Assembly (NCBI RefSeq): GCF_003351045.1
Contig: NZ_QQZY01000004.1
Coordinates: 1-64,000, forward strand
Source: Gaiella occulta
Lineage (GTDB): Bacteria > Actinomycetota > Thermoleophilia > Gaiellales > Gaiellaceae
DNA length: 64,000 bases
Direction of reading: 5' to 3'
Shown: positions 2,446 through 15,147 of the stretch, one piece after another
Numbering within the stretch: the first letter of the stretch is position 1
Layout of the letters: each line of letters starts with the position of its first letter
Position numbers and translations under genes: made by a program
Notes under the pieces: generated by a model
Told to the model about the DNA's origin: nothing
Databases searched by the model: none
What the model saw: the letters and a program-made list of their open reading frames with translations, nothing else

Positions 2446-4323
2446 GTGCGGTTCCCCGTCAACCGGCACAGGCTCTGGCAGGTCGGAGTCGACGGCGCCG
2501 TGGTCGCGCTCGCCTGGTGGCTCGCGTGGCAGCTCCGCTTCGACCAGGGGCGGCCCGGCTACTACAACCGCTACCTCGACTGGGATCTCGTCCTGCTCGT
2601 CGCCGGCGTCAAGCTGCCGGTCTTCGCCCTGGCCGGGTTCTACAACCGCTGGTGGCGCTACGTCTCGACGCGGGACATGTGGGGCGCCGTGCGCGGCGTC
2701 GCCTTCGCCTCGCTTGCGACGTTCCTCGTGTTCACCCTGTTCGAGGTGCAGCCGAACCGTGTGCCGACCGGCGTCTGGTTCATCGACCTGCTGCTCTGCC
2801 TCGCCTTCGTGGCGGGCCTGCGCCTCGCCGCGCGGTCGCTGATCGAGCGGCCCCGTCCCGGGCAGGTCGTCGTCCGCGGCAAGGAGGCGCTCGTCGTCGG
2901 CGCCGGCGACGCGGCGCAGCTCGTCGTCAAGGAGATGCTCCGGAACCCGGGGCTCGGGTACACGCCGATCGGCCTCGTCGACGACGATCCGCGCAAGAAG
3001 AACCTGCGCATCCACGGCATCCGCGTGCTCGGGACGACGGAAGAGCTGCCGCAGCTGATCCGCCTCCGGCGCCCCGACGAGGTGCTGATCGCGATCCCCT
3101 CCGCGTCGGGTGCGGCGCGCGGGAAGATCGTGGAGGCGGCCCGCGCGGAGGGCGTCGCGGTGAAGACGCTGCCGGGACTGATGGAGCTCGTCTCCGGCGA
3201 CTTCGACCTCACCGCCCAGCTGCGGCCGGTCGAGGTCGAGGACGTGCTCGGGCGCGAGCCGGTAGAGGTCGACCTCGACGCGATCGCCGGCTACCTCGGC
3301 GGCGAGGTGGTGATGGTGACCGGCGCCGGCGGCTCCATCGGCTCGGAGCTCTGCCGGCAGGTGTCGCGCCTCGGACCGGCCAAGCTCGTGCTCGTCGACC
3401 ACGCGGAGCCGGCGCTGTTCGAGATCGAGCGGGAGCTCGTGCGCGAGCGCGGCTTCACCGCGGCCGCAGCCGTCGTCGCAGACGTGAAGGACGGCGAGAA
3501 GATGCGCCAGGTGTGCGCGAGCTACCGGCCGGGCGTCGTCTTCCACGCGGCCGCGTACAAGCACGTGGCGATGATGGAGGCGAACCCGATCGAGGCGGTG
3601 CGCAACAACACGCTCGGCACGCGGACGCTCGCGGACGTCGCCGTGGAGCACGGAGCGAAGCGCTTCGTGCTCGTGTCCACCGACAAGGCGGCCAATCCGA
3701 AGACGGTGATGGGCCAGTCGAAGGCTCTGTGCGAGTGGATCGTCGAGACGTACGGCCACCGCCCCGACGTCGCGACCCGGTTCGTGGCGGTGCGGTTCGG
3801 CAACGTGCTCGGCTCGTCGGGCTCCGTGATCCCGATCTTCCGCAGGCAGATCGCACGGGGCGGGCCGGTGACGGTGACGCATCCGGAGATGACGCGCTTC
3901 TTCATGACGATCCCCGAGGCGGTCCAGCTCGTCGTGCAGGCGGGCGCGATCGGCGAGCGCGGCCAGGTGTACGTGCTCGACATGGGCGAGCCGGTGCGCA
4001 TCGTCGACCTCGCCGAGAACATGATCCGCCTCTCGGGCAAGGAGCCCGGCACCGAGATCGCGATCGAGTTCATCGGGCCGGCGCCGGGGGAGAAGCTGCA
4101 CGAGGAGCTGGTCGGCGACGGCGAGACGGTGTCGCCGAGCCCGCACCCGAAGATCCGCCGGATCACGCGGCCGCCCGTCGAGCAGGCCTGGCTCGAGGCC
4201 GAGCTCGCCACGCTCGAGCGGCTCGTCGAGGAGGGCGAGACGCTGGAGCTCGTGGGCGCCTTGAGCCGTATCGTGCGCGAGCCGCGCCGCGAGGGCAGCT
4301 CGACCGCCGTCGGCGCCGACTAG
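2446..4323 (+). CDS. CapD/FlaA1-like polysaccharide biosynthesis dehydratase, membrane-anchored
   Basis: Long-form nucleotide-sugar 4,6-dehydratase (625 residues from GTG 2446). Such enzymes convert UDP-GlcNAc to a 4-keto-6-deoxy sugar, feeding DegT aminotransferases like the gene just upstream. Order: four transmembrane helices (about 1-115), a CoA-binding-like Rossmann domain (about 140-275) and an extended SDR domain starting at the V-T-G-A-G-G-S-I-G-S-E motif (about 297). The S-T-D-K-A-A-N-P segment and the M-G-Q-S-K catalytic segment are also present; this subgroup has Met where most SDRs have the catalytic Tyr. It ends in C-T-A-G, sharing stop-codon bases with the converging DUF354 gene. 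Confidence 0.92.
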   Translation: MRFPVNRHRLWQVGVDGAVVALAWWLAWQLRFDQGRPGYYNRYLDWDLVLLVAGVKLPVFALAGFYNRWWRYVSTRDMWGAVRGVAFASLATFLVFTLFEVQPNRVPTGVWFIDLLLCLAFVAGLRLAARSLIERPRPGQVVVRGKEALVVGAGDAAQLVVKEMLRNPGLGYTPIGLVDDDPRKKNLRIHGIRVLGTTEELPQLIRLRRPDEVLIAIPSASGAARGKIVEAARAEGVAVKTLPGLMELVSGDFDLTAQLRPVEVEDVLGREPVEVDLDAIAGYLGGEVVMVTGAGGSIGSELCRQVSRLGPAKLVLVDHAEPALFEIERELVRERGFTAAAAVVADVKDGEKMRQVCASYRPGVVFHAAAYKHVAMMEANPIEAVRNNTLGTRTLADVAVEHGAKRFVLVSTDKAANPKTVMGQSKALCEWIVETYGHRPDVATRFVAVRFGNVLGSSGSVIPIFRRQIARGGPVTVTHPEMTRFFMTIPEAVQLVVQAGAIGERGQVYVLDMGEPVRIVDLAENMIRLSGKEPGTEIAIEFIGPAPGEKLHEELVGDGETVSPSPHPKIRRITRPPVEQAWLEAELATLERLVEEGETLELVGALSRIVREPRREGSSTAVGAD

Positions 4324-5339
4324 CGCCGCAGCTCGAGGGCCGACAGGAGCAGATCGAGCAGCGCCGACGGCGCGCGCTCGAGGCGCGGCGCGGCGCCGGC
4401 CCGCTTCACGAGCGCGAGATCGCCGGCGGAGGCCAGCGGCCGCAGGCGTCCGCCGGCGATCAGTGCCTCGTCGACCGCGCCCAGCCTGCCGGCGAAGGTC
4501 GTGTAGACCGGCACGCCGAGCGCGACCGCCTCGCGGTTCATCGTGCCTCCGGCGGACACGACGAGGTCGGCGAGCGCGACCAGGCTCTGCGCGTCGATCG
4601 CGCGCCCGGGCACGACGAGCGACGGCAGCGCCGCCTGCCGGAGCGCGTCGCGCTGCGCCGCGGTGCGAGGGAGCACGACCGCGTGCACCGCCGGGTCGCG
4701 TCCGAGCCGCTCGAGCACGTCGGCGAAGAGCGGGTTGCCGTGGCGGTGGTACAGCGACACCTCCGGCGGGGTGCGCACGACCGCGAGCACGCGCGAGCGG
4801 TCGAGGCCGAGCGCGTCGAGCACGGAGGCGTCCGCCACGAAGCCCGAGAGGTAGTACTCCTCCTTGAGGCCCGGGTAGCGGCGCACCTTGGCCGCGGTGG
4901 CGCCGAGACGGTCGAGCCGCTCCTTCGGGATCGCCTCCGGCACGATGACGCAGGTCGCGGCGCGTGAGCCGAGCGTGTGCTGGGCGCGCGCGAACTCGTA
5001 GTCGAACGCGTAGGCGGACGGCACGCCGAGCGTGCGCGCGACGAGCGGCAGCTCGTGCGAGGCGTGCGAGAGGGCGACGTCGAAGCGGCGCCGCCGCGCC
5101 CAGCCGCGCAACGCGTGCAGCCTCGCGCCCATCGCGCGGACCTTCGCCCCGCGCCCCGCCCCGCCGTGCGGGGGCCCCACGACGTCGTGCGCGACGCCCG
5201 CCGCCTGCAGCAGCTCCAGCGTCTGCGCGAAGTCGCGCGCCGACACGTGCACCTCGTGCCCGCGCTCCTCGAGCAGCGCGAGCAGCGGCCGGAAGAACGG
5301 CACGTGCGGCGAGTTCGTCATGTCGATCCAGACCCTCAT
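4320..5339 (-). CDS. DUF354 family protein (GT-B/UDP-GlcNAc 2-epimerase-like)
   Basis: Protein of 339 residues starting M-R-V-W-I-D-M-T-N-S-P-H, the hallmark opening of DUF354. The fold is predicted to resemble GT-B glycosyltransferases and UDP-GlcNAc 2-epimerases. Function in bacteria is not established; a nucleotide-sugar or glycan role fits the neighbourhood. The C-terminal half carries S-A-G-G-T-M-N-R-E-A, equivalent to the nucleotide-binding loop with its conserved glutamate. The ATG overlaps the stop of the upstream ATPase gene (ATGA), so the two are translationally coupled. The stop overlaps the end of the converging CapD gene. Confidence 0.82.
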   Translation of the reverse strand: MRVWIDMTNSPHVPFFRPLLALLEERGHEVHVSARDFAQTLELLQAAGVAHDVVGPPHGGAGRGAKVRAMGARLHALRGWARRRRFDVALSHASHELPLVARTLGVPSAYAFDYEFARAQHTLGSRAATCVIVPEAIPKERLDRLGATAAKVRRYPGLKEEYYLSGFVADASVLDALGLDRSRVLAVVRTPPEVSLYHRHGNPLFADVLERLGRDPAVHAVVLPRTAAQRDALRQAALPSLVVPGRAIDAQSLVALADLVVSAGGTMNREAVALGVPVYTTFAGRLGAVDEALIAGGRLRPLASAGDLALVKRAGAAPRLERAPSALLDLLLSALELRR

Positions 5340-6517
5340 GCGTCCCCTTCCAGCCTCGTCGACGCCTTCCGCTCCAGCCATTCGGCGAGAAACGGCTCGG
5401 CGAGTCGATAGCGTCCGTCCGGGCCCTTCTCGATCACATCCTCCCGCACGAGCGACGTGACGGCGCGCTGCACGAAGGTCGGAGCGGGCAGCCCGGCCCG
5501 TTCGCGCGTCTCCTCGGCGTACAGGCTCTGCGCCCCGGCGCGGAGTGCCAGCAGGACGAGGCGCTCGTTGCGCGTTGCCGCGTCCCACAGGCGGGCGAGA
5601 TTGTTGTGCTCGGCGCGCAGCACGTCCACGAGGCCGGCCTCGACGTCGGCGGCCCGCGCCGCGTGCCCGCGGGGGACATGCGCCCAGGTGAAGAAGGCCA
5701 GCTCCTGCGTCGCGTACGGGTGGCCGTCGGTGATCTCGAGGATGCGGGAGACGGCCTCGTCGTCGGCGTCCCGCGCCGTCGCGGCGAACCGTGAGCGCAG
5801 ATGGCCCGCGAGCGTGTCGTGGGGCAGCCGGCCGAGCTCCATCCGGCGTGCGCCCCGCCACAGCGCGCCGTCGCGGTCGTCGAAGATCGCGTGCCGGGCG
5901 TGCCGCCTGCTGCCCACGTACACGTGGGCGACGTCGGGCTGGGCCTGGAACACCGACCGCATCAGGTCGGGCAGCCGCGGGTCGAGTGCCACGATCTCCT
6001 GGAACTCGTCGAACAGGATCGCCACCTGCCGCTCGCGCTCGGCCGCGATCCGCCCCGGCAGCTCGAGCAGCCGCTCGATCGTGCCGTCGATGGCGCCGTC
6101 GGCGTGGCTTGCCCGGAAGGAGAAGCTGAGCGCGCCGTCGTCCGGGTCGAGCTCGATCGTCGGGCGCACCGGTAGGCCGCGGAAGAGACCGGCGGCGCGA
6201 TCTCGCGGCTGCCCCGGCGGCGAGGCGAGGTCGTCGTCGATCGTCTTCGCCAGAGCGGCGGCGAAGCGCTCCTTCGTGGGCGTACGCGTCAGGTCGCACG
6301 TGGCGACGAGGATGCCCTCGCGCGCCGCCTCCTGGACGGCCCGGAGCGCGAGCGAGGACTTGCCGTAGCGCCGGGGAGCGAGCAGGAGCACGTCCCGGCC
6401 GCCGCGCAGATCGCTCGTCAGCGCCCGCAGCTCGTCCTCGCGGTCGACGAACGCGTCGCCGCAGGCGAGGCTTCCGAACGTGAACGGATTCCGCTCGACC
6501 ACCCGCGCAATATACAT
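5336..6517 (-). CDS. AAA+ ATPase of the archaeal-ATPase (ATPase_2) type with C-terminal winged helix
   Basis: 393 residues from ATG 6517 (M-Y-I-A-R-V-V-E-R-N-P-F). The N-terminal N-P-F-x-F and F-V-D-R-E-D-E-L lead into Walker A A-P-R-R-Y-G-K53-S-S and Walker B L-F-D170-E171-F-Q-E, all typical of the ATPase_2 group of STAND-like P-loop proteins. The last ~80 residues look like a winged helix. Members are linked to DNA transactions, mobile elements or signalling, but few have known functions. The unusual point is its coupling by ATGA to a DUF354 sugar-type gene. The upstream region is strikingly AT-rich compared with everything around it. Confidence 0.85.
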   Translation of the reverse strand: MYIARVVERNPFTFGSLACGDAFVDREDELRALTSDLRGGRDVLLLAPRRYGKSSLALRAVQEAAREGILVATCDLTRTPTKERFAAALAKTIDDDLASPPGQPRDRAAGLFRGLPVRPTIELDPDDGALSFSFRASHADGAIDGTIERLLELPGRIAAERERQVAILFDEFQEIVALDPRLPDLMRSVFQAQPDVAHVYVGSRRHARHAIFDDRDGALWRGARRMELGRLPHDTLAGHLRSRFAATARDADDEAVSRILEITDGHPYATQELAFFTWAHVPRGHAARAADVEAGLVDVLRAEHNNLARLWDAATRNERLVLLALRAGAQSLYAEETRERAGLPAPTFVQRAVTSLVREDVIEKGPDGRYRLAEPFLAEWLERKASTRLEGDA

Positions 6518-6552
6518 CCGCCATATGAATGAGATATATGAGTATGTATAAT
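6511..6552. promoter_or_regulatory. AT-rich divergent control region with inverted repeat and TATAAT
   Basis: TATACAT (6511-6517, covering the ATPase start codon) and ATGTATA (6544-6550) form a 7-base inverted repeat with a 26-base spacer. TATAAT at 6547-6552 is a good -10 for the LysR gene at 6591, giving a leader of roughly 30 bases. LysR proteins usually bind such dyads near their own promoters, so autoregulation is plausible but inferred. Confidence 0.45.
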
Positions 6553-6590
6553 ACAGAGGCGGACAATCGACAACGGGATAACATCCGCTT

Positions 6591-7484
6591 ATGGACACGC
6601 GCCAGCTCGCCGCGTTCTGCGCCGTCGTCGAGCGCCGCAGCTTCTCGCAGGCGGCCGAACGGCTCGGCGTCACGCAGCCCGCCGTTTCGCTGCAGGTACG
6701 GGCGCTCGAGAAGCGCCTCGGGGTGCAGCTGCTCGACCGCTCCGGCAGGCGCGTGGAGCCCACCGAGGCCGGCTCGAGGCTCTACCGCGGCGCCCAGCGT
6801 CTCCTCGAGATCGAGGAGACGCTGCTCGAGGAGATCGCGGCCGAGGGGCAGGGCGCCCTCGAGGGCGAGCTTGCGATCGGCGCCTCGACCGGCCCTGCCG
6901 CGATCGCCGTGCCCGTGCTCCTGTGCGAGTTCCAGCAGGCGAACCCCGGCGTGCGGATCCGCCTGCGCGTGCACGACACGCAGACGGTCGTCGATCTCGT
7001 CGCCGGCCGCGAGCTCGAGCTCGGCATCGTCGGCGCCGCGCGCCGCCATCGCGGCGTCCGCTTCGAGCCTCTGCTGCGAGACGAGGTGATCCTGATCTGC
7101 CCTCCGGGCCACCCGTTCGCGGGACGCACCGTCGCCGTCGACGAGCTGCGCGCCGAGCGCCTGATCGTGATGCAGGAGGGCGCCGGCGTGCGGCAGGTGG
7201 TCGAGGACGAGCTGCGGCGCATGGGAACGCGGCTGCGCGACCTCGACGTGCGCCTCGAGCTCGGCCTGCAGGAGTCGGTGCGCAGCGCGGTCATCGCGGG
7301 CTACGGGGTGACGTTCATCTCCCGCACGGCCGTCGAGGCCGACCTTGCCGCCGGCACGCTCGCCGAGGCGCGTCTCGACGGCATGGACGCGACGCGCGAG
7401 ATCTCGCTCGTGCGCGGCGCCGGGAGGGTCTCGACGCGCGTCGCGGAGGCGTTCGCCGCGTTCGCCCACGTCCGGCAGGGATGA
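6591..7484 (+). CDS. LysR-family transcriptional regulator
   Basis: 297 residues. Residues 1-60 form the LysR winged helix-turn-helix (M-D-T-R-Q-L-A-A-F, S-F-S-Q-A-A-E-R-L, T-Q-P-A-V-S-L-Q-V-R-A-L-E, then the wing with L-L-D-R). Residues ~90-297 are the periplasmic-binding-like effector domain. It likely responds to a small metabolite and controls the coupled dehydrogenase gene. Its stop overlaps the next ATG (ATGA). This same-strand, coupled arrangement is less common than the divergent one usual for LysR regulators. The ligand cannot be predicted. Confidence 0.92.
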   Translation: MDTRQLAAFCAVVERRSFSQAAERLGVTQPAVSLQVRALEKRLGVQLLDRSGRRVEPTEAGSRLYRGAQRLLEIEETLLEEIAAEGQGALEGELAIGASTGPAAIAVPVLLCEFQQANPGVRIRLRVHDTQTVVDLVAGRELELGIVGAARRHRGVRFEPLLRDEVILICPPGHPFAGRTVAVDELRAERLIVMQEGAGVRQVVEDELRRMGTRLRDLDVRLELGLQESVRSAVIAGYGVTFISRTAVEADLAAGTLAEARLDGMDATREISLVRGAGRVSTRVAEAFAAFAHVRQG

Positions 7485-8500
7485 GCGCCAGGATCGTCCG
7501 TTTCGGCCCCGGCGCGCTCGCACGGCTGCCGGAGGTGCTGGCCGAGGTCGGGGTAGAGCGGCCGCTTCTCGTCACGACGCTCCGCGGGGCGCGCTCCGCG
7601 GGCGCCCTCGCCCGCGCCGGCCTCTTCGACGGCGTCCGCCCCCATGTCCCGCTCGAGACCGTGCACGCCGCCGCCGCGGCGGCGCGGCGCGCGCGGGCGG
7701 ACGGCATCGTCGCGCTCGGCGGCGGCAGCGCGATCGACACCGCCAAGGCGGCGGCGGTCGAGCTCCTCGACGAGGTCGAGCCGAGGATCGTCGTCGTGCC
7801 GACGACGTACGCCGGCGCCGAGTGGACGCCGTACTTCGGGATGCTCCTCGAGCCCGGCCGCAAGGGCGGCGGCGCCGACGCGCGGGTTCGTCCCGTCGCG
7901 GCCGTGTACGACCCGCTGCTCACGCTCGAGCTGCCGCCGGGCGACACGGTCGGCACGGCCATGAACGCTCTCGCACACTGCGCCGAGGCGTACTACCACC
8001 CGCGGTCGGGCCCCGAGGCTGCCGGACGCGCCGACGCGGGCGCCGCCGCGATCGCCCGCGCGCTTCCCGCGGTCGTCGAGGAGCCGCGCTCGCTCGCCGA
8101 GCGCACGCGCCTGCTCGAAGGCGCGATGCATGCCGCGATCGCGCTCGACGAGTCCGGCCTCTGCCTCGGGCATGCGATGGCGCAGGCCCTCGGCGGCCGC
8201 TACGGGCTTGCCCAGGGAACGGCGAACGCGCTCTGCCTGCCGGCGGCGCTGCGCTTCAACGCCGAGGCCGTTCCCGCTGCCGTCGCCCGCTTCGGCCGGG
8301 CGCTCGCGGCCGACGACGCGGCCGCCGGCGTCGAGCAGCTCGCGCGGCTCGGCGGCTTCGGGCGGCTGCGCGACCAGGGCGTCCCGGCCGGCGACCTGCC
8401 GGCGGTCGCCGAGGAGATCGCCGCCCGGCCGGGGGCGCGCGCGAACCCGAAGCCCGCGTCCGCCGCTCAGATCGCGGAGCTGCTGCGCGCCGTCTGGTAG
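7481..8500 (+). CDS. Iron-containing alcohol dehydrogenase, maleylacetate-reductase-like
   Basis: 339 residues. The G-G-G-S-A-I-D-T-A-K-A loop (about 79-89) binds the dinucleotide, P-T-T-Y-A-G-A-E-W-T follows, and G-T-A-M-N-A-L-A-H-C-A-E-A is the maleylacetate-reductase version of the metal/substrate region. The later G-H-A-M-A-Q-A-L-G-G segment matches the second ligand region. Maleylacetate reductases catalyse the last step of chloro- and hydroxy-aromatic degradation to 3-oxoadipate using NAD(P)H. No ring-cleavage dioxygenase is nearby, so the substrate is uncertain. It starts at ATG 7481, overlapping the LysR stop, and is probably controlled by that regulator. Confidence 0.8.
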   Translation: MSARIVRFGPGALARLPEVLAEVGVERPLLVTTLRGARSAGALARAGLFDGVRPHVPLETVHAAAAAARRARADGIVALGGGSAIDTAKAAAVELLDEVEPRIVVVPTTYAGAEWTPYFGMLLEPGRKGGGADARVRPVAAVYDPLLTLELPPGDTVGTAMNALAHCAEAYYHPRSGPEAAGRADAGAAAIARALPAVVEEPRSLAERTRLLEGAMHAAIALDESGLCLGHAMAQALGGRYGLAQGTANALCLPAALRFNAEAVPAAVARFGRALAADDAAAGVEQLARLGGFGRLRDQGVPAGDLPAVAEEIAARPGARANPKPASAAQIAELLRAVW

Positions 8501-8507
8501 TGGGCGG

Positions 8508-8888
8508 CTACGTCGCGGCCTTGACGGCGCCGACGACCCGACGCAGGCTGACGACGCCGAGCACGTGCCCGTTGCCGTCGAGCACGGGGAGGTGGCGGAA
8601 GCCGTGCTCGAGCATCACCTGCGCGGCCTCCTCGACGTCGCTGTCCGACGTCGTCGTGACGGGATCCTCCGTCATCCACTGCCGCACTCGCGCCTCGCTC
8701 GAGTGGACGCGGGCGGCCATCGCCTTGAGCAGGTCGCGCTCGGTGAGGATCCCGATCAGCGTCCCGTGATCCTTCACGACGACGGCGCCGACGTTCTTCG
8801 CCGTCATGCGCTCCGCGACCTCGCCGAGCGTGTCCTCGGGCGCGACCTCGATGAAATCGGGGCGCATCACGTCGGCGATCCGCGGCAT
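8508..8888 (-). CDS. Two-CBS-domain protein
   Basis: 126 residues made almost entirely of a CBS pair (Bateman module). CBS1 spans about 4-62 (V-M-R-P-D, then G-I-L-T-E-R-D-L-L) and CBS2 about 68-122 (W-M-T-E-D-P-V, R-H-L-P-V-L-D, G-V-V-S-L-R). Such stand-alone modules bind adenine nucleotides or SAM and act as energy sensors for partner proteins. No partner is evident. It converges on the dehydrogenase gene with a 7-base gap. A -10 box TAGACT on the minus strand (8895-8900) sits 6 bases before the ATG, so the mRNA is probably leaderless. Confidence 0.9.
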   Translation of the reverse strand: MPRIADVMRPDFIEVAPEDTLGEVAERMTAKNVGAVVVKDHGTLIGILTERDLLKAMAARVHSSEARVRQWMTEDPVTTTSDSDVEEAAQVMLEHGFRHLPVLDGNGHVLGVVSLRRVVGAVKAAT

Positions 8889-8894
8889 CGCCCG

Positions 8895-8900
8895 AGTCTA
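8895..8900 (-). promoter_or_regulatory. -10 box TAGACT of the CBS gene
   Basis: On the minus strand TAGACT ends 6 bases before ATG 8888, with no leader or Shine-Dalgarno sequence. Confidence 0.5.
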
Positions 8901-8978
8901 GCGCAGCGCGAGGGAAAGGAGGCCGCGCGCTCCCTTCCGAGGATAAGCATGTGTAATGCAGATCATAAGGCAACCTGG

Positions 8979-8984
8979 TAGTAT
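8979..8984 (+). promoter_or_regulatory. -10 box TAGTAT of the flavoprotein/fumarase/ComA operon
   Basis: TAGTAT ends 7 bases before ATG 8992. Because the two other in-frame ATGs (8956 and 8983) lie in or before the box, 8992 is the favoured start. The region is AT-rich against its surroundings. Confidence 0.5.
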
Positions 8985-8991
8985 GGCCGGA

Positions 8992-10197
8992 ATGCAGCCT
9001 GCGGGGCCCTTCGACGTGCTCGTGATCGGCAGCGGGGCCTCCGGCCTCGCCGCCGCCGTCTCCGCCGAGCGCGCGGGAGCGCGCGTCGCGCTCGCGACGA
9101 AGGGCTCGCTCCAGGCCAACAACTCGTCGAAGGCGCAGGGAGGGATCCAGGCCGCGCTGGGCGAGGACGACTCGCCGGCCCTTCACGCCGACGACATCAT
9201 GCGCTCCTCGCACGGCACGGCCGACCCGCGGCTCGTCGAGGTGCTCAGCGCCGAGGCGGCTTCGGCGATCCACTGGCTCGAGGAGCTCGGCTGCGTGTTC
9301 AACCGCGAGAACGGCGGCTACCGGCTCGCCCGCTGCGGCGGCGCCTCCCGCCGGCGGCTGCTCCAGGTCGGCGACCGTACCGGGCACGCGATCACGAAGG
9401 CGCTGCGTGACGCCTTCGAGGCCGGCTCCGGCCTCGCCTTCCCGCACCACGCGCTCGTGGATCTGGCGGCCGCGGAGAACGGCTGGAGCGCGAGCTTTCG
9501 CACGGGAGGCGGTGACCGGATCCGGTTGGCGGCCGGCACGGTCGTGCTGGCCGCCGGCGGGCGCTGCTTCGCCGAGGCGGCGAAGCGCGGCGAGCTGTCG
9601 ACGAACCATCCGAACGCGACCGGCGAGGTGACGAGGATCGCCCTCGACCTCGGCGTCGAGGCCCGCGATCTCGACGCCCTCCAGTACCACCCGAACGGCG
9701 GCGCCTGGCCGCGGACGATGCAGGGCTACTCGATTCCCGAGACGACGCGCGCCTACGGCGCCGTGCTCGTCAACGCGGACGGCGAGGAGTTCACCGACTC
9801 GCTCGGGCCGCGAGACGTCGTCTCGCAGGCGATCTTCGACGAGGTCGCCGCCGGCCGCGGCGTCGAGACCGAGGACGGCCGGCCGGCCGTCTACCTCGAC
9901 ACGACGAGGATCGCGAAGGCCGATGCCGAGATCTCGCTGCCGTACATGCTGCGCCGCTACCGCGGCGCCGGCATCGACCCGCTCGAGGAGAGGCTTCTGA
10001 CCTACCCCGTCCTCCACTACCAGAACGGCGGCCTCGTCATCGACGAGGACGCCGAGACCACGCTCGAGGGGCTGTACGCCTGCGGCGAGATCGCCGGCGG
10101 CACCCACGGGCGCAACCGCATGATGGGCAACTCGCTGCTGGAGTGCGTCGTCTTCGGACGGCGTGCCGGCCGCGCGGCCTCGGAGAAAGCGAGCTGA
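8992..10197 (+). CDS. Short FAD-dependent fumarate-reductase/aspartate-oxidase-like flavoprotein
   Basis: 401 residues from ATG 8992, first gene of the operon. FAD site: V-I-G-S-G-A-S-G (11-18) and N-N-S-S-K-A-Q-G-G (43-51). The family catalytic set is present: H233 in Q-Y-H-P-N-G, R253 in E-T-T-R-A-Y-G, H342 in H-Y-Q-N-G-G-L, and R376 in the N-R-M-M-G-N-S-L-L-E segment. It should therefore interconvert a succinate/fumarate-like pair or a close analogue. Two oddities: the normal R-G-E-G reads R-A-Y-G, and the protein stops right after the FAD/capping core, about 130-180 residues shorter than NadB or SdhA, lacking the C-terminal helical domain. Its stop overlaps the next ATG (TGATG). NadB is the main alternative, but no nadA or nadC is near. 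Confidence 0.8.
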   Translation: MQPAGPFDVLVIGSGASGLAAAVSAERAGARVALATKGSLQANNSSKAQGGIQAALGEDDSPALHADDIMRSSHGTADPRLVEVLSAEAASAIHWLEELGCVFNRENGGYRLARCGGASRRRLLQVGDRTGHAITKALRDAFEAGSGLAFPHHALVDLAAAENGWSASFRTGGGDRIRLAAGTVVLAAGGRCFAEAAKRGELSTNHPNATGEVTRIALDLGVEARDLDALQYHPNGGAWPRTMQGYSIPETTRAYGAVLVNADGEEFTDSLGPRDVVSQAIFDEVAAGRGVETEDGRPAVYLDTTRIAKADAEISLPYMLRRYRGAGIDPLEERLLTYPVLHYQNGGLVIDEDAETTLEGLYACGEIAGGTHGRNRMMGNSLLECVVFGRRAGRAASEKAS

Positions 10198-11096
10198 TGA
10201 CGACGATCACGACGACCGACCTCGCAGGAGCCGTGGAGGACGTCGCGGCGCACCTGTACGTGTGGGCGCTGAAGGACATCCCGCAGGACCTGCGTGACGC
10301 GCTGGCCGCGGCCCGCGACCGCGAGACCTCGACGACGGGCATCCGCATCCTCGAGACGATCCACCGCAACGTGTCGATCGCGGACGAGCAGAAGAACCTC
10401 GTCTGCCAGGACACCGGCATCGCCGTCTACACCTGCCGCGTGGGCGAGCACTTCCCGCTCCATCCGGCGCGCATCTACGCGTCGCTCAAGGCGGGCACGG
10501 CGCGCGCGACCGTCGAGCATCCGCTGCGCTCGAACGCGGTGCACGTGCTCACCCGCGAGAACACGGGCCCCAACGTCGGGCACCGGCTGCCGATCGTGCA
10601 CTGGGAGTTCATCCCGGACTGGGACGGCCTCGACGTGAAGTGCGTGCCGAAGGGGTCGGGCTCCGAGAACATGAGCTTCCTGAAGATGTGCGTCCCGGCC
10701 GACGGGGTGAGCGGGATCAAGAAGTTCGTGCTCGAGTCGATCGTCGACGCGGGCGGCAAGCCGTGCCCGCCCGGCATCGTCGGCGTCGGCATCGGCGGCT
10801 CGGCCGACTACGCGATGTACCTCGCCAAGGAGGCGATCGCCCGCCCGGTCGGCACTCGCAACGCGGACCCGCTCGTGGCGCAGCTCGAGGACGAGCTGTA
10901 CGGCCTGCTCAACGAGACCGGCATCGGTCCCATGGGCCTCGGCGGCGACGTCACCGTGTTGCAGTGCCACATCGAGCACGCCGACACGCACATGACGCTC
11001 AACCCGGTGGCGGTCAACTACCAGTGCTGGGCGGCGCGGCGCGCCTCCGCGCACATCGCCGCCGACGGCAGCGTCGACTTCGACCGGGAGTTCTGA
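10197..11096 (+). CDS. Class I (Fe-S) fumarate hydratase, alpha subunit-like
   Basis: 299 residues from ATG 10197, the usual length for the alpha subunit of two-part class I fumarases and tartrate dehydratases. The three 4Fe-4S cysteines are in their proper motifs: C70 in V-C-Q-D-T-G, C190 in K-P-C-P-P-G followed by G-V-G-I-G-G, and C277 in N-Y-Q-C-W-A. These oxygen-sensitive enzymes hydrate or dehydrate C4 dicarboxylates reversibly. The gene starts inside the stop of the flavoprotein (TGATG) and ends overlapping the ATG of a 32-codon frame before the beta subunit. Substrate may be fumarate/malate or, given ComA downstream, a sulfonate analogue; sequence alone cannot decide. Confidence 0.9.
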   Translation: MTTITTTDLAGAVEDVAAHLYVWALKDIPQDLRDALAAARDRETSTTGIRILETIHRNVSIADEQKNLVCQDTGIAVYTCRVGEHFPLHPARIYASLKAGTARATVEHPLRSNAVHVLTRENTGPNVGHRLPIVHWEFIPDWDGLDVKCVPKGSGSENMSFLKMCVPADGVSGIKKFVLESIVDAGGKPCPPGIVGVGIGGSADYAMYLAKEAIARPVGTRNADPLVAQLEDELYGLLNETGIGPMGLGGDVTVLQCHIEHADTHMTLNPVAVNYQCWAARRASAHIAADGSVDFDREF

Positions 11097-11194
11097 TGGC
11101 TGACGCGACGACGTACCCGTACGAGCGCGAACGGCCGCCCTTGTGGCTCGGAGCCACGAAGTCGTTTGCATCCGGCAGCGAGGAGACGAGCTGA
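11096..11194 (+). CDS. Small ORF (32 aa) between fumarase alpha and beta
   Basis: Reads M-A-D-A-T-T-Y-P-Y-E-R-E-R-P-P-L-W-L-G. Its ATG overlaps the alpha-subunit stop (TGATG) and its stop overlaps the beta-subunit ATG (TGATG), so it fills the gap exactly. That is what a translated, coupled small gene would look like. I recognise no family. It is acidic/aromatic, has no cysteine and no membrane segment. It could be a small accessory peptide or only a relay carrying ribosomes from alpha to beta. Coding status is unproven. Confidence 0.5.
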   Translation: MADATTYPYERERPPLWLGATKSFASGSEETS

Positions 11195-11781
11195 TGGCTC
11201 ACCACGAAGTCACGTTCCCGATCACCGACCCGCACGAGATCCTGAAGCTGCGTGCTGGTGACGAGGTGACGGTGCAGGGGCACATCATCGGCATCCGCGA
11301 CCGCACCCAGATCCGCATCTTCGACCAGGGCGTCGAGCCGCCGATGGACCTCTCCGGCGCCTTCCTGCTCCATACCGCCCCGAACGTGCGCAAGGTGGCC
11401 GAGGGCAGGTACGAGAAGATCTGCATCGGCACGACGACGAGCGCGCGCATGGTGCGCTTCACCGAGGGGCTCGGCGCGCAGTACGGCGTCCGCGCGATCT
11501 GCGGCAAGGGCGGCTTCCCCGACGTGGCGATCGAGCCGATGCAGCGGCTCGGGATGGTCTACTTCGCGATCGTCGGCGGCGCCGCGGCGCTCGAGACGAC
11601 GCAGATCGAGGAGATCGAGGAGGTGCTCTGGGAAGAGCTCATGCCCGAGTGCCTGTGGAAGTTCCGCGTCAAGGACTTCGGCCCGCTCATCGTCGGCATC
11701 GACGCGCACGGCAACTCCCTCTACCACGACGTCCAGGCCCGCGCCCACGACAAGCTGAAGGAGCTCTATGCCCGGCTATGA
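11194..11781 (+). CDS. Class I fumarate hydratase, beta subunit-like
   Basis: 195 residues from ATG 11194 (M-A-H-H-E-V-T-F-P-I). This is the swivelling C-terminal domain of class I fumarases as a separate subunit. Visible: L-R-A-G-D-E-V-T-V-Q-G near the start, H-T-A-P-N-V, G-T-T-T-S-A-R-M-V-R-F (the family G-P-T-T-S-x-R-M substrate loop, with P replaced by T), then G-K-G-G-F. It completes the active site of the alpha subunit. An upstream in-frame ATG at 11143 lies inside the 32-codon frame and is less likely, since 11194 is coupled to that frame's stop. Confidence 0.9.
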   Translation: MAHHEVTFPITDPHEILKLRAGDEVTVQGHIIGIRDRTQIRIFDQGVEPPMDLSGAFLLHTAPNVRKVAEGRYEKICIGTTTSARMVRFTEGLGAQYGVRAICGKGGFPDVAIEPMQRLGMVYFAIVGGAAALETTQIEEIEEVLWEELMPECLWKFRVKDFGPLIVGIDAHGNSLYHDVQARAHDKLKELYARL

Positions 11782-11911
11782 AGCCTCGGACGGCCACTTC
11801 GACCCTGCCCGCGGCGGCACTGATGCGGCCCGCGCCCGCGCAAGCCGGCCCGGGAGCTCTCGTCGTCCTCGCCCGTCGTCGTCCGCGCCGGCCGTGAGGA
11901 GGGCAACATGA
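11768..11911 (+). CDS. Small ORF (47 aa) bridging fumarase beta and comA
   Basis: Starts at ATG 11768 inside the last codons of the beta subunit (another frame) and ends with a stop overlapping the comA ATG (ATGA at 11908-11911). It reads M-P-G-Y-E-A-S-D-G-H-F-D-P, then becomes Arg/Ser/Pro-rich and probably disordered. No family is recognised. A second frame starting at 11778 (ATGA overlap with the beta stop) ends at 11897 and looks less likely. As with the 32-codon frame, exact overlap with the next start suggests coupling, but coding is unproven. Confidence 0.35.
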   Translation: MPGYEASDGHFDPARGGTDAARARASRPGSSRRPRPSSSAPAVRRAT

Positions 11912-12702
11912 CCATCGGAGGCTTCGAGGACGGCTGGCTCGGCGTTCCGACCCGCCCCGGCAAGCCCCGCCAGAACGGACTCACGCACGTCATCGACAAG
12001 GGCCTCAACACCCGCGACATCGAGGGGATGTTCGACACGGCGGGAGCCTTCGTCGACATCGTCAAGCTCGGCTGGGGCACGAGCTACGTCACGAACAACC
12101 TCGAGAAGAAGATCGCGCTGTACCGGCACTTCCAGACGCCGGTCGTGTGCGGAGGCACGCTGTTCGAGGCGGTCTACGCGCGCGGCAAGATGGACGAGTT
12201 CAAGGCGTGGCTCGTCGAGCACCGCTTCGCGCACGTCGAGATCTCCGACGGCACGATCGACATCCCGCGCGACGAGAAGCTCGAGCTGATCCGCGACTTC
12301 GCCCGCGACTTCACGGTGCTCTCCGAGGTCGGCTCGAAGGACTCCGACGTCGTCTACGCGCCCTACCAGTGGGTCGAATGGATCAAGGAAGAGCTCGCGG
12401 CCGGCTCGTGGAAGGTGATCACCGAGGCCCGCGAGGGCGGCACGGCCGGCATCTTCCGCAAGGACGGCGACATGCGCACCGGCCTCATCGACGAGATCGC
12501 GCACGAGGTGCCGATCGACGACCTCATCTTCGAGGCGCCGACGAAGTCCTCGCAGGCGTGGTTCGTGAAGCAGTTCGGCCCCAACGTCAACCTCGGCAAC
12601 ATCCCGCCCGACGAGGTGATCCCGCTCGAGACGCTGCGGCTCGGCCTGCGCGGCGACACGCTGAAGGAGATCCTCGTCCCCGCGCCGGAGCCCTCGGCAT
12701 GA
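11908..12702 (+). CDS. comA: Phosphosulfolactate synthase (ComA family)
   Basis: 264 residues, the family's normal TIM-barrel length. ComA adds sulfite to phosphoenolpyruvate to give (2R)-phospho-3-sulfolactate, first step of coenzyme M synthesis in methanogens and of some bacterial sulfonate routes. Motifs seen: D-K-G (30-32), K53-L-G-W-G-T-S, E111-I-S-D-G, E173-A-R-E, F-E-A-P (208-211) and N-L-G-N-I (228-232), the positions expected for Mg and substrate binding. A good ribosome site (GAGGAG) precedes ATG 11908. No ComB phosphatase is visible nearby. Location after a fumarase and before TauE suggests a sulfonate pathway, discussed as a finding. Confidence 0.9.
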   Translation: MTIGGFEDGWLGVPTRPGKPRQNGLTHVIDKGLNTRDIEGMFDTAGAFVDIVKLGWGTSYVTNNLEKKIALYRHFQTPVVCGGTLFEAVYARGKMDEFKAWLVEHRFAHVEISDGTIDIPRDEKLELIRDFARDFTVLSEVGSKDSDVVYAPYQWVEWIKEELAAGSWKVITEAREGGTAGIFRKDGDMRTGLIDEIAHEVPIDDLIFEAPTKSSQAWFVKQFGPNVNLGNIPPDEVIPLETLRLGLRGDTLKEILVPAPEPSA

Positions 12703-12749
12703 GCCTGCCGCCCCGCCCGTCCGGTCACGTGTCCCGCAGGGAGAAGTGA
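12699..12749 (+). other. 16-codon bridging ORF between comA and the TauE gene
   Basis: ATG 12699 overlaps the comA stop (ATGA) and the TGA at 12747-12749 overlaps the GTG start of the exporter gene (GTGA). The peptide would be M-S-L-P-P-R-P-S-G-H-V-S-R-R-E-K. It is too short to call a gene; a role in termination-reinitiation coupling is possible. The exporter also has its own purine-rich ribosome site (about 12738-12744). Confidence 0.3.
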
Positions 12750-13654
12750 GCGTGGACTGGAAGCTGTCGCTTGCCGGGCTCCTCATCGGCCTGCTCGTCG
12801 GGATGACGGGGATGGGCGGCGGCTCGCTGATGACGCCGCTGCTCGTGCTCGTGTTCGGCTTCAAGCCGACGGTCGCAATCGGGACGGACATCCTGCACGG
12901 CGCCATCTTCAAGTCGTTCGGCGCCGTGCAGCACCGGCGGCTCGGCAACGTCAACCTGCGCCTCGCCCTGTGGATGCTGCTCGGCTCCGCGCCGCTGTCG
13001 CTCGTCGGGGTCATGGTGGCGACCTGGCTCAAGCACCACTACGGCGACGGCTTCGAGGCCGTCGCCAAGGAGATCCTCGGCGTCGCGCTCGTCCTCTGCG
13101 GGCTCGGCTTCCTCGCCAAGGCCTTCCTGCGCTCGCGCCCGCGGGGAGGCTCGTGGCGGATGAGCGTGCGCGACAAGCGCATCGCCTTCGTCACCGGCCT
13201 CGCCGGCGGCTTCGTCGTCGGGCTCACGTCCGTCGGCAGCGGCACCTTCTTCGGCCTCGTGATGATGCTCGTGTTCCCGCTCTCGGCGGCCGCCGTCGTC
13301 GGCACCGACATCTTCCATGCCGCCGCGCTGCTCTGGGTGGCCGGCGCGGGGCACATCGTGGCCGGGAACGTCGATCTCGGCGCGACGGGATGGCTGCTGA
13401 TCGGCTCGATCCCGGGAGTGCTGCTCGGCGGCCACTTCACCGTGCACCTCCCTGACCGTGTCCTGCGGGTCGCCCTTGCGACGACGCTCACGCTCGCGGG
13501 CGTGAAGCTCGTGGACTTCCCGGGAGCCGACATGGTGCTCCTGGCCGGCGTCGCAGCCGCGCTCGCGGGCGCGCTGCTCGCGCTCAGCGTGCGGCTCGGC
13601 CGGCGCGCCCGCCCGCTGCCGGTCGCCGACGCGGTGCCGTCGTCGGAGCCCTGA
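12746..13654 (+). CDS. TauE/SafE family sulfite/sulfonate transporter
   Basis: 302-residue membrane protein with about eight helices and the repeated family motif: G-M-T-G-M-G-G-G-S in the first half and G-L-T-S-V-G-S-G in the second. TauE/SafE proteins carry sulfite, sulfoacetate, 3-sulfolactate, taurine-derived sulfonates or other organic anions, often as exporters. Last gene of the flavoprotein/fumarase/ComA operon, translated from GTG 12746, whose bases overlap the stop of a 16-codon frame. The pairing with ComA supports a substrate that is either sulfite (input) or an organosulfonate (output). Confidence 0.88.
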   Translation: MSVDWKLSLAGLLIGLLVGMTGMGGGSLMTPLLVLVFGFKPTVAIGTDILHGAIFKSFGAVQHRRLGNVNLRLALWMLLGSAPLSLVGVMVATWLKHHYGDGFEAVAKEILGVALVLCGLGFLAKAFLRSRPRGGSWRMSVRDKRIAFVTGLAGGFVVGLTSVGSGTFFGLVMMLVFPLSAAAVVGTDIFHAAALLWVAGAGHIVAGNVDLGATGWLLIGSIPGVLLGGHFTVHLPDRVLRVALATTLTLAGVKLVDFPGADMVLLAGVAAALAGALLALSVRLGRRARPLPVADAVPSSEP

Positions 13655-13664
13655 GCCGCTACCG

Positions 13665-14153
13665 CTACGCGTTCTCGCCCGCGACCGGCGGCGGCAGCGG
13701 GCAGCTGACGAACTTCCGCCCGGTCAGCGCATAGCCGATCTTGTAGGCGCTGCAGCCGGCGCAGAAGCCGGTGACGGCGGCGAGGAGCGCGAGCGCGGCG
13801 ACGATGCTCCCGAGCACGGTGCCGGCCGTCGACCAGCCGGCGACGTGCGCGAGCGACGCGGCGGTGAGGAAGGCGAGCCCGACCATGTTCGCGAAGCGCG
13901 GCGGGCGGCTGTCCTCGAGCGGCCCTTCGCCGAGGCGCTGCTGCAGCACCTCGTAGTAGAAGACGCAGGCGAGGCACCAGCGCCGGCCGAGCGTGAGGCC
14001 GAGCGCGAGCTGCAGGGCGAGCAGCGCGAGCAGCCACCACGGCCCGACCGTGACCGCGGCGAGCGCGACGAGCCCGACGACGGCCTGGTTCACCCGCGGC
14101 GCTCGGGCGTCGATCACGGTGGTGTCCCGGTACGGATCCGCTCGTCGCTTCAC
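13665..14153 (-). CDS. DUF4395 membrane protein
   Basis: 162 residues beginning (GTG 14153) with a short cytosolic segment, then D-A-R-A-P-R-V-N-Q and four hydrophobic helices. Cysteines occur at W-C-L-A-C and F-C-A-G-C, the spacing that marks DUF4395 proteins, often found with thiosulfate sulfurtransferase or thioredoxin-like genes. The four cysteines suggest a redox or sulfur-handling role in the membrane, which would fit the neighbouring sulfonate operon it converges on (10-base gap). That link is inference; no function is established for the family. Confidence 0.75.
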   Translation of the reverse strand: MKRRADPYRDTTVIDARAPRVNQAVVGLVALAAVTVGPWWLLALLALQLALGLTLGRRWCLACVFYYEVLQQRLGEGPLEDSRPPRFANMVGLAFLTAASLAHVAGWSTAGTVLGSIVAALALLAAVTGFCAGCSAYKIGYALTGRKFVSCPLPPPVAGENA

Positions 14154-14193
14154 TTTGGGAAGTATGCCTGACGGCGAACCGGCCGTCGCAACC

Positions 14194-14199
14194 TAGAAT
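14194..14199 (+). promoter_or_regulatory. -10 box TAGAAT of the FlgD-Ig/ligase/PIG-L operon
   Basis: TAGAAT ends 9 bases before GTG 14209; no ribosome binding site is present between them. Confidence 0.5.
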
Positions 14200-14208
14200 C
14201 AGCCGGAC

Positions 14209-15147
14209 GTGGCCAGATACGCACCAGCCGCCCTCGTCGCGGCGCTGCTCGTCGCCACGGCCCTCGCGTTCACCTACACCGAGCAGCTGAAGCTGACGCC
14301 GAGCCCCATCTTCGGCACCCGCGTGCCGGCGAAGACGTTCTCGCCGGTGTGCCGCTGCGACACCGACACGGTCACGATCGGGTTCCGGCTGCGCGAGGCC
14401 GACCGGCTCGAGATCGACATCGTGCGCGACGGCGACGTCGTGAGGCGCCTCGTCCGTGACAGGGACGTCCCGCGTGGGGGGTACGTGCACGTGCGATGGA
14501 ACGGGCGCGACGACGCCGGCAGGGTCGTCGCCGAGGGCCCGTACCGGCCGCGCGTGCGCCTCGAGCGGCAGCGGCGGACGATCGTGCTGCCGAACCCGAT
14601 CGTCGTCGACACGACTCCGCCGCGGGTGAGGCTGACGCGCCTGGCGCCGCGCGTGTTCTCGCCCGACGGCAACGGCCGCGGCGACCGCGTCGTCGTCGGG
14701 TACCGCCTCGACGAGCCGGCGCGCGTGTCGCTGCTCGTCGACGGCGAGCGCGCGGTGCGCAAGAAGGGGCAGAAGACCGAGGGCACGATCGACTGGTACG
14801 GCCGGCGGGCGGGCAGGAGCCTGCCGCGGGGCCGCTACCGCCTCGAGGTCGAGGCCGTCGATCTTGCCGGCAACACGTCGCGGCCCACGCCGGCCAGGAC
14901 CGTCGTGATCCGCTACGTCGCGCTCGGTCGCGACCGCATCGAGACGCGGCCGGGAGGGCGCATCGCCGTCCTCGTGCTCGCCGACGCCGCCAACGTCGCG
15001 TGGAAGCTCGGCGCCCGCGCCGGCAGCGCGCCTCCGGGCACGCTGCGGCTGCGCGCGCCGCTGCGCCCGGGTCGCTTCACGCTGACCGTGGCGGTGGGGG
15101 AGCACCGCGCCCGCGCCGCGGTGATCGTGCGGGAGCCGGCCCCGTGA
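14209..15147 (+). CDS. Secreted or anchored protein with FlgD-like Ig repeats
   Basis: 312 residues. A hydrophobic segment at about 7-25 is a signal peptide or signal anchor. It is followed by two FlgD-type Ig units: one at about 35-135 (W-N-G-R-D-D-A-G-R-V-V and P-Y-R-P-R-V strands) and one at about 140-235, which opens with R-V-F-S-P-D-G-N-G-R-G-D, a motif common at the start of such domains. A third beta-rich region runs to the end. Function is unknown; these modules form stalks on surface proteins. The stop overlaps the GTG of the O-antigen ligase-like gene (GTGA), so it likely acts with glycan export. Confidence 0.75.
   Translation: MARYAPAALVAALLVATALAFTYTEQLKLTPSPIFGTRVPAKTFSPVCRCDTDTVTIGFRLREADRLEIDIVRDGDVVRRLVRDRDVPRGGYVHVRWNGRDDAGRVVAEGPYRPRVRLERQRRTIVLPNPIVVDTTPPRVRLTRLAPRVFSPDGNGRGDRVVVGYRLDEPARVSLLVDGERAVRKKGQKTEGTIDWYGRRAGRSLPRGRYRLEVEAVDLAGNTSRPTPARTVVIRYVALGRDRIETRPGGRIAVLVLADAANVAWKLGARAGSAPPGTLRLRAPLRPGRFTLTVAVGEHRARAAVIVREPAP

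Follow-up and report, generated by a model that had tools for sequence, protein, structure and literature searches.

A conserved module of ComA, class I fumarase, and a fumarate reductase-like flavoprotein in Thermoleophilia and its possible role in sulfonate biosynthesis

The 64,000-nucleotide (nt) window of contig NZ_QQZY01000004.1 analyzed here comes from the type strain F2-233T of Gaiella occulta, whose genome comprises 3,028,529 bases in 34 contigs (PMC6741124). It carries, on the forward strand, genes for a short flavoprotein (here called FrdL), the two subunits of a class I ([4Fe-4S]) fumarase (FumA and FumB), a member of the (2R)-phospho-3-sulfolactate synthase family (ComA), and a TauE/SafE-family transporter. 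FrdL, FumAB, and ComA form a conserved unit that appears to represent a variant of ComA-initiated sulfonate synthesis, so that the interpretation given in a first-pass annotation of this DNA is partly supported. The full scheme, a sulfonate biosynthesis operon that leads through sulfolactate and sulfoacrylate to 3-sulfopropionate, is put forward tentatively, with slightly less than even confidence. It builds on the gene set, its conserved linkage, the changes at active-site positions, and the sulfite-forming neighbors that relatives have.

Gene set and conserved linkage

The five genes named by the first-pass annotation are all located where it had placed them, with Pfam scores far above the respective cutoffs. 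These are the 413-amino-acid FrdL of the FAD_binding_2 family (positions 8956 to 10197, 219 bits), FumA (10197 to 11096, Fumerase domain, 300 bits), FumB (11194 to 11781, Fumerase_C domain, 91 bits), ComA (11908 to 12702, 291 bits against a curated cutoff of 25.2), and TauE (12746 to 13654, 141 bits), a candidate exporter of sulfonate or sulfite. The open reading frame (ORF) of FrdL has a possible start at 8956, and position 8992, where the first-pass annotation began the gene, is an internal in-frame start. The same annotation had described one coupled operon, which is borne out by the FumA start, overlapping the stop of FrdL by 1 nt at position 10197, while the other junctions are looser. 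The gap between FumA and FumB measures about 97 nt and is spanned by a 32-codon ORF that overlaps both ends (ATGA/TGATG; window positions 11096 to 11194) and shows no conservation in relatives; the FumB-ComA and ComA-TauE spacers are 126 nt and 43 nt, respectively. Coupling across the five genes is real but uneven.

When public genomes were searched for ComA, 45 loci were obtained, most of them from Thermoleophilia/Gaiellales assemblies. The intact order FrdL-FumA-FumB-ComA is found in 25 of them, all from other genomes, so the adjacency is not a peculiarity of G. occulta, a possibility that the first-pass annotation had allowed for. In a survey of 129 Thermoleophilia genomes, with families labeled f1 (that of G. 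occulta), f2, f3, and so on, ComA was detected in 64 genomes, class I FumA also in 64, and FrdL in 41. FrdL is encoded in 41 of the 64 ComA-positive genomes and in none of the 65 ComA-negative ones (Fisher P = 2e-17, uncorrected for shared ancestry). In 38 of these 41 genomes, FrdL and ComA lie within 4 kb of each other on one contig; in the remaining 3, they are on broken contigs. Because the four-gene order recurs in 25 loci and FrdL co-occurs with ComA, chance adjacency of the flavoprotein, the fumarase, and ComA is excluded.

The module comes in several layouts. Family f1 has LysR, an iron-containing alcohol dehydrogenase (ADH), FrdL, FumA, FumB, and ComA, in this order; f3 has LysR-FrdL-ComA, sometimes followed by ATP sulfurylase; and f2 and freshwater assemblies have ComA-FrdL. 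The f4 locus, which lacks FrdL, consists of LysR, 3'-phosphoadenosine-5'-phosphosulfate (PAPS) reductase, TauE, FumA, FumB, ComA, and a histidine phosphatase. Most ComA loci of f1 and several of those of f4 include TauE. One f1 locus (L140, positions 5451 to 7333) is reduced to FrdL-FumB-ComA, with FumA lost and FumB lacking the catalytic Arg. Judging from these layouts, the constant part of the module is ComA, which FrdL and FumAB can each accompany singly.

The searches also returned some loci at the margins of this distribution. Loci of the same type are found in assemblies titled Bifidobacterium breve and Acidobacteriota (L033 and L041), which are probably mislabeled. The Bacteroidota ComA homologs in L042, L044, and L045 are ~50% identical and have neither FrdL nor FumAB nearby, and in genome G239 (L124), a NadB-like gene near ComA is just 34% identical.

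Altered substrate-site residues in FrdL and FumAB

FrdL has the His, Glu, Arg, His, and Arg of the catalytic site of the fumarate reductase superfamily: in an alignment, the residues that match His244, Glu260, Arg290, His351, and Arg386 of L-aspartate oxidase (NadB) are kept in all 44 FrdL homologs. The AlphaFold model of FrdL (predicted local distance difference test score of 88) gives its best PDB superposition with Escherichia coli FrdA (template modeling score, 0.86). The conserved Thr that serves the distal carboxylate (NadB Thr259) is replaced by Pro in 44 of 44 homologs, and the position of NadB Glu121 is occupied by Cys in 43 of 43, the 44th homolog being gapped there. FrdL also lacks the C-terminal domain of NadB and SdhA and falls far below every equivalog cutoff. 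Thus, it is not a member of the NadB family (263 versus 453 bits for TIGR00551, with Glu121, Thr259, and the C-terminal domain all missing), nor does it belong with FrdA/SdhA, given the Pro in place of Thr, the missed equivalog cutoffs, and the lack of an adjoining FrdB-like gene. A more distant flavoprotein from another class (genome G400; 374 bits) was considered as a possible FrdL member and rejected, as it has retained the canonical Thr and its contig does not encode ComA.

FumA passes the NF004885 model (302 bits; cutoff, 276), and FumB scores below the equivalog cutoffs. An alignment that included canonical FumB, TtdB, and FumA shows that the ComA-linked proteins keep the CQDTG, TT..R, and GKG motifs that characterize two-subunit class I fumarases. 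The canonical substrate-site motifs RDxAH and GPTT are absent from the ComA-linked beta subunits: RDxAH has become RDxTQ (RDRTQ in the FumB described here), with the His retained by one f1 and one f4 member, and GPTTS has become GTTTS. The ComA-linked FumA proteins, in turn, have shared changes after a conserved His. In a phylogenetic tree, the ComA-linked FumAB fall into a clade of their own, separate from the canonical class I fumarases of Thermoleophilia, and f4 genomes encode both kinds, a canonical enzyme (~380 bits) and the ComA-linked one (~312 bits). The active-site changes in FrdL and FumAB fit substrates whose distal group is not a carboxylate; they do not by themselves prove that this group is a sulfonate.

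Sulfite supply, phosphatase, and the proposed pathway

The ComA protein shares its motifs with the structures 1qwg and 1u83, the latter being the closest solved homolog, and probably joins phosphoenolpyruvate (PEP) and sulfite to form phosphosulfolactate. In most f1 relatives, ComA is followed by CysH and then by ATP sulfurylase (Sat) or CysDN, with TauE, and the NIR_SIR domain, which marks recognizable sulfite reductases, is absent in 14 of 20 ComA-positive f1 genomes and in all 12 ComA-positive f4 genomes. Since the sulfite-forming genes come right after ComA while most such genomes lack a sulfite reductase, ComA very probably consumes CysH-made sulfite in these relatives. The argument is weaker for G. 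occulta itself, where other parts of the genome contain a siroheme synthase-like gene and, adjacent to CysH, a gene for a reductase of the NirA family. In the class survey, many ComA-positive Thermoleophilia with CysH and Sat were found to have no recognizable sulfite reductase.

Class I hydro-lyases bind the free hydroxyl of the substrate to the [4Fe-4S] cluster, so a phosphatase would be expected to act between ComA and the fumarase. The first-pass annotation saw no gene for the ComB phosphatase, which is correct for the locus and incorrect for the genome: a ComB-family gene is located on contig 2 (173829 to 174452; 208 bits). ComB-family genes are present in 19 of the 20 ComA-positive f1 genomes, G. 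occulta included, and within f1 they accompany the occurrence of FumAB. In f4, a histidine phosphatase gene directly follows ComA (L047, L050, L051, and L141) and is a candidate ComB replacement. In contig 9 of genome G121 (f8), the source of L058, the ComA and ComB-family genes adjoin. The product of ComA has the (2R) configuration. By our own derivation, (R)-sulfolactate fits the spatial arrangement of (S)-malate, the substrate of class I fumarases, since the rules of nomenclature give CH2SO3H priority over COOH.

Taken together, these data can be arranged into the following scheme. ComA would convert sulfite and PEP to (R)-phosphosulfolactate, as is known for its family, and a phosphatase encoded elsewhere (ComB family) would strip off the phosphate group. 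The class I fumarase linked to ComA may then dehydrate (R)-sulfolactate to sulfoacrylate, which FrdL may reduce to 3-sulfopropionate, while TauE might export the product or surplus sulfite. A broader version of this proposal, in which Thermoleophilia have a dedicated pathway from sulfate via sulfite to 3-sulfopropionate with a neofunctionalized class I fumarase and a minimal fumarate reductase-like flavoprotein, and in which this pathway is the main fate of CysH sulfite in the members without sulfite reductase, is put forward with slightly more reserve.

Several observations weigh against this scheme. The ComA protein stays below the equivalog cutoff of TIGR03849 (239 versus 280 bits), which is an archaeal model, and no sulfite-forming genes adjoin the module in the Gaiella window. 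ComB-family genes also occur in three f1 genomes without ComA, and f3 genomes, which carry FrdL-ComA without FumAB, as f2 genomes do, are devoid of ComB as well. The reverse case, FumAB-ComA without FrdL at the locus, is seen in f4. FrdL has no evident electron donor partner and no FrdB-like gene beside it, which makes the direction of its reaction and, along with the separability of FrdL and FumAB, the exact steps conjectural. Finally, a sister Gaiella genome (G079) encodes a FumAB paralog, 83% identical, in a catabolic-looking cluster (L137, positions 4221 to 14550) that contains an IclR regulator, a succinate dehydrogenase (SDH)-like trimer, a two-subunit UxaA-like enzyme, aconitase X, aldehyde dehydrogenase, and FumAB. 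Because this cluster has no ComA, the ComA-linked FumAB clade may not be specific for sulfonates. A role of the UxaA-family enzyme as sulfolactate sulfo-lyase (SuyAB), which would tie this FumAB to sulfonates, was considered as well, and no model supported it.

One alternative, that FumAB is an ordinary fumarase and FrdL an ordinary fumarate reductase or aspartate oxidase, both of which just happen to be encoded next to ComA, agrees with their overall similarity to those families but is largely refuted and, in our opinion, highly improbable. It is contradicted by the strict co-occurrence with ComA, the divergence of the substrate residues in both enzymes, and the additional canonical class I fumarase in f4 genomes. 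Housekeeping roles are also unlikely because G. occulta has separate genes for these functions: a FumC-like gene (its 508 bits fall short of the TIGR00979 cutoff), a NadB-like gene (421 bits, just under its cutoff), and SDH genes (PMC6741124). A more serious, if still doubtful, competitor retains ComA-initiated sulfonate synthesis but has FrdL acting in some other way on a ComA-derived compound, for example as a lone oxidase or dehydrogenase or as the reductase of a different unsaturated sulfonate, with FumAB as an optional side branch. Such a role would suit a protein that lacks a partner domain or subunit, as does NadB, an enzyme able to use O2, and would account for the conservation of ComA-FrdL without FumAB in f2 and f3 and for its persistence in L140 despite the decayed fumarase. 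It is harder to square with the fact that FrdL has kept the residues with which fumarate reductases deliver protons, E-x-x-R and Arg, and with its translational coupling to FumA in f1.

Phosphosulfolactate itself, or some other hydroxysulfonate, might also be the substrate of the fumarase, which would make ComB unnecessary. The operon indeed has no phosphatase gene, and there is a precedent in XcbC1 of bacterial CoM synthesis, which reportedly converts phosphosulfolactate to sulfoacrylate by phosphate elimination. XcbC1, however, comes from the unrelated aspartase/fumarase superfamily, and the free hydroxyl bound by class I hydro-lyases, the ComB-family gene in f1, and the phosphatase that follows ComA in f4 make this variant improbable. 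We attach equally little weight to a pathway running in reverse, with 3-sulfopropionate oxidized to sulfoacrylate, hydrated to sulfolactate, and then broken down, and with TauE exporting sulfite. LysR and TauE are common in sulfonate degradation loci. In Roseovarius nubinhibens, homotaurine is reportedly degraded through the same order of compounds (a thesis as cited in PMC11489063). Against degradation stand the lack of a desulfonating enzyme or a kinase in the operon, the nature of ComA as a synthase, and the CysH and ATP sulfurylase/CysDN genes beside it, which indicate sulfite production. A pathway for coenzyme M (CoM) or a CoM-like compound has very little to recommend it beyond the fact that bacterial CoM operons share ComA and may include CysH, as in Nocardioides JS614. 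In the neighborhoods examined, neither the two fumarate lyase genes nor the pyridoxal phosphate (PLP) enzyme known from the CoM operon of Xanthobacter was found, and alkene or epoxide genes are not nearby. The XcbC1/XcbD1 lyases and the XcbE1 PLP enzyme do accompany ComA in L091; none was seen in the ORFs at the loci from Thermoleophilia.

The region upstream of FrdL encodes, on the forward strand, a LysR-family regulator (6591 to 7484; HTH_1 and LysR_substrate domains), which precedes the ComA module in f1, f3, and f4, and a maleylacetate reductase-like iron-containing ADH (7481 to 8500; Fe-ADH domain, 99 bits; good matches to 3w5s and 3hl0), the start of which overlaps the LysR stop. The latter was rejected as a candidate for the reductase, being a conserved neighbor only in f1 and having known relatives that act on other substrates. 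A putative AAA-type ATPase that contains an ATP-binding motif, encoded on the reverse strand upstream of LysR (5336 to 6763), is unrelated to the sulfonate module.

Comparison with known systems

Members of the Thermoleophilia, though common in soils and waters, are poorly characterized. Should the 3-sulfopropionate scheme hold, their route from sulfate to a C3 sulfonate would add a source to the environmental sulfonate pool that is degraded by other bacteria, would represent a recruitment of malate-fumarate-succinate enzymes for the sulfonate analogs of their substrates, and would account for the sulfite-forming genes in bacteria without sulfite reductase. With a cultured type strain as the source, the proposal is directly testable.

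The first-pass annotation knew of no described pathway with this set of genes. No report of ComA together with a class I fumarase and a fumarate reductase-like flavoprotein was found in the literature searched, with many subscription papers lying outside it. The claim should still be qualified, since the intermediates have precedents. Sulfoacrylate is an intermediate of bacterial CoM synthesis. The full triple has been described for degradation, by way of a thesis cited in PMC11489063.

FrdL has the fold and the catalytic His, Glu, and Arg of soluble fumarate reductase, L-aspartate oxidase, and TfrA but is shorter and differs from them in the Pro that replaces the distal-carboxylate Thr and in the Cys at the NadB Glu121 position. 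Bacterial CoM biosynthesis, with the xcb operon of Xanthobacter autotrophicus Py2 and the operon of Nocardioides JS614 as examples, also starts with a ComA-family enzyme and reportedly passes through sulfoacrylate, and the Nocardioides operon has a PAPS reductase near ComA. In contrast to the class I FumAB and flavoprotein seen here, the CoM route relies on a PLP enzyme together with two lyases of the class II type and ends in a thiol. Bacillus subtilis YitD/YitC and methanogen ComA/ComB likewise make phosphosulfolactate from PEP and sulfite and then use the ComB phosphatase; these systems are not known to include a fumarase-like or fumarate reductase-like enzyme. Degradation of 3-sulfopropionate/homotaurine via sulfoacrylate and sulfolactate in R. 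nubinhibens, so far as the thesis is cited in PMC11489063, involves the same three C3 sulfonates in the opposite direction, a comparison made at the level of the compounds. In Enterococcus gilvus, 3-sulfopropionate is a product and TauE its probable exporter (PMC11489063). The HpfX/HpfYZ system of this organism thus has the proposed product and the TauE exporter in common with the Thermoleophilia module but starts from 2,3-dihydroxypropane-1-sulfonate (DHPS) and proceeds via 3-sulfopropionaldehyde and its CoA ester.

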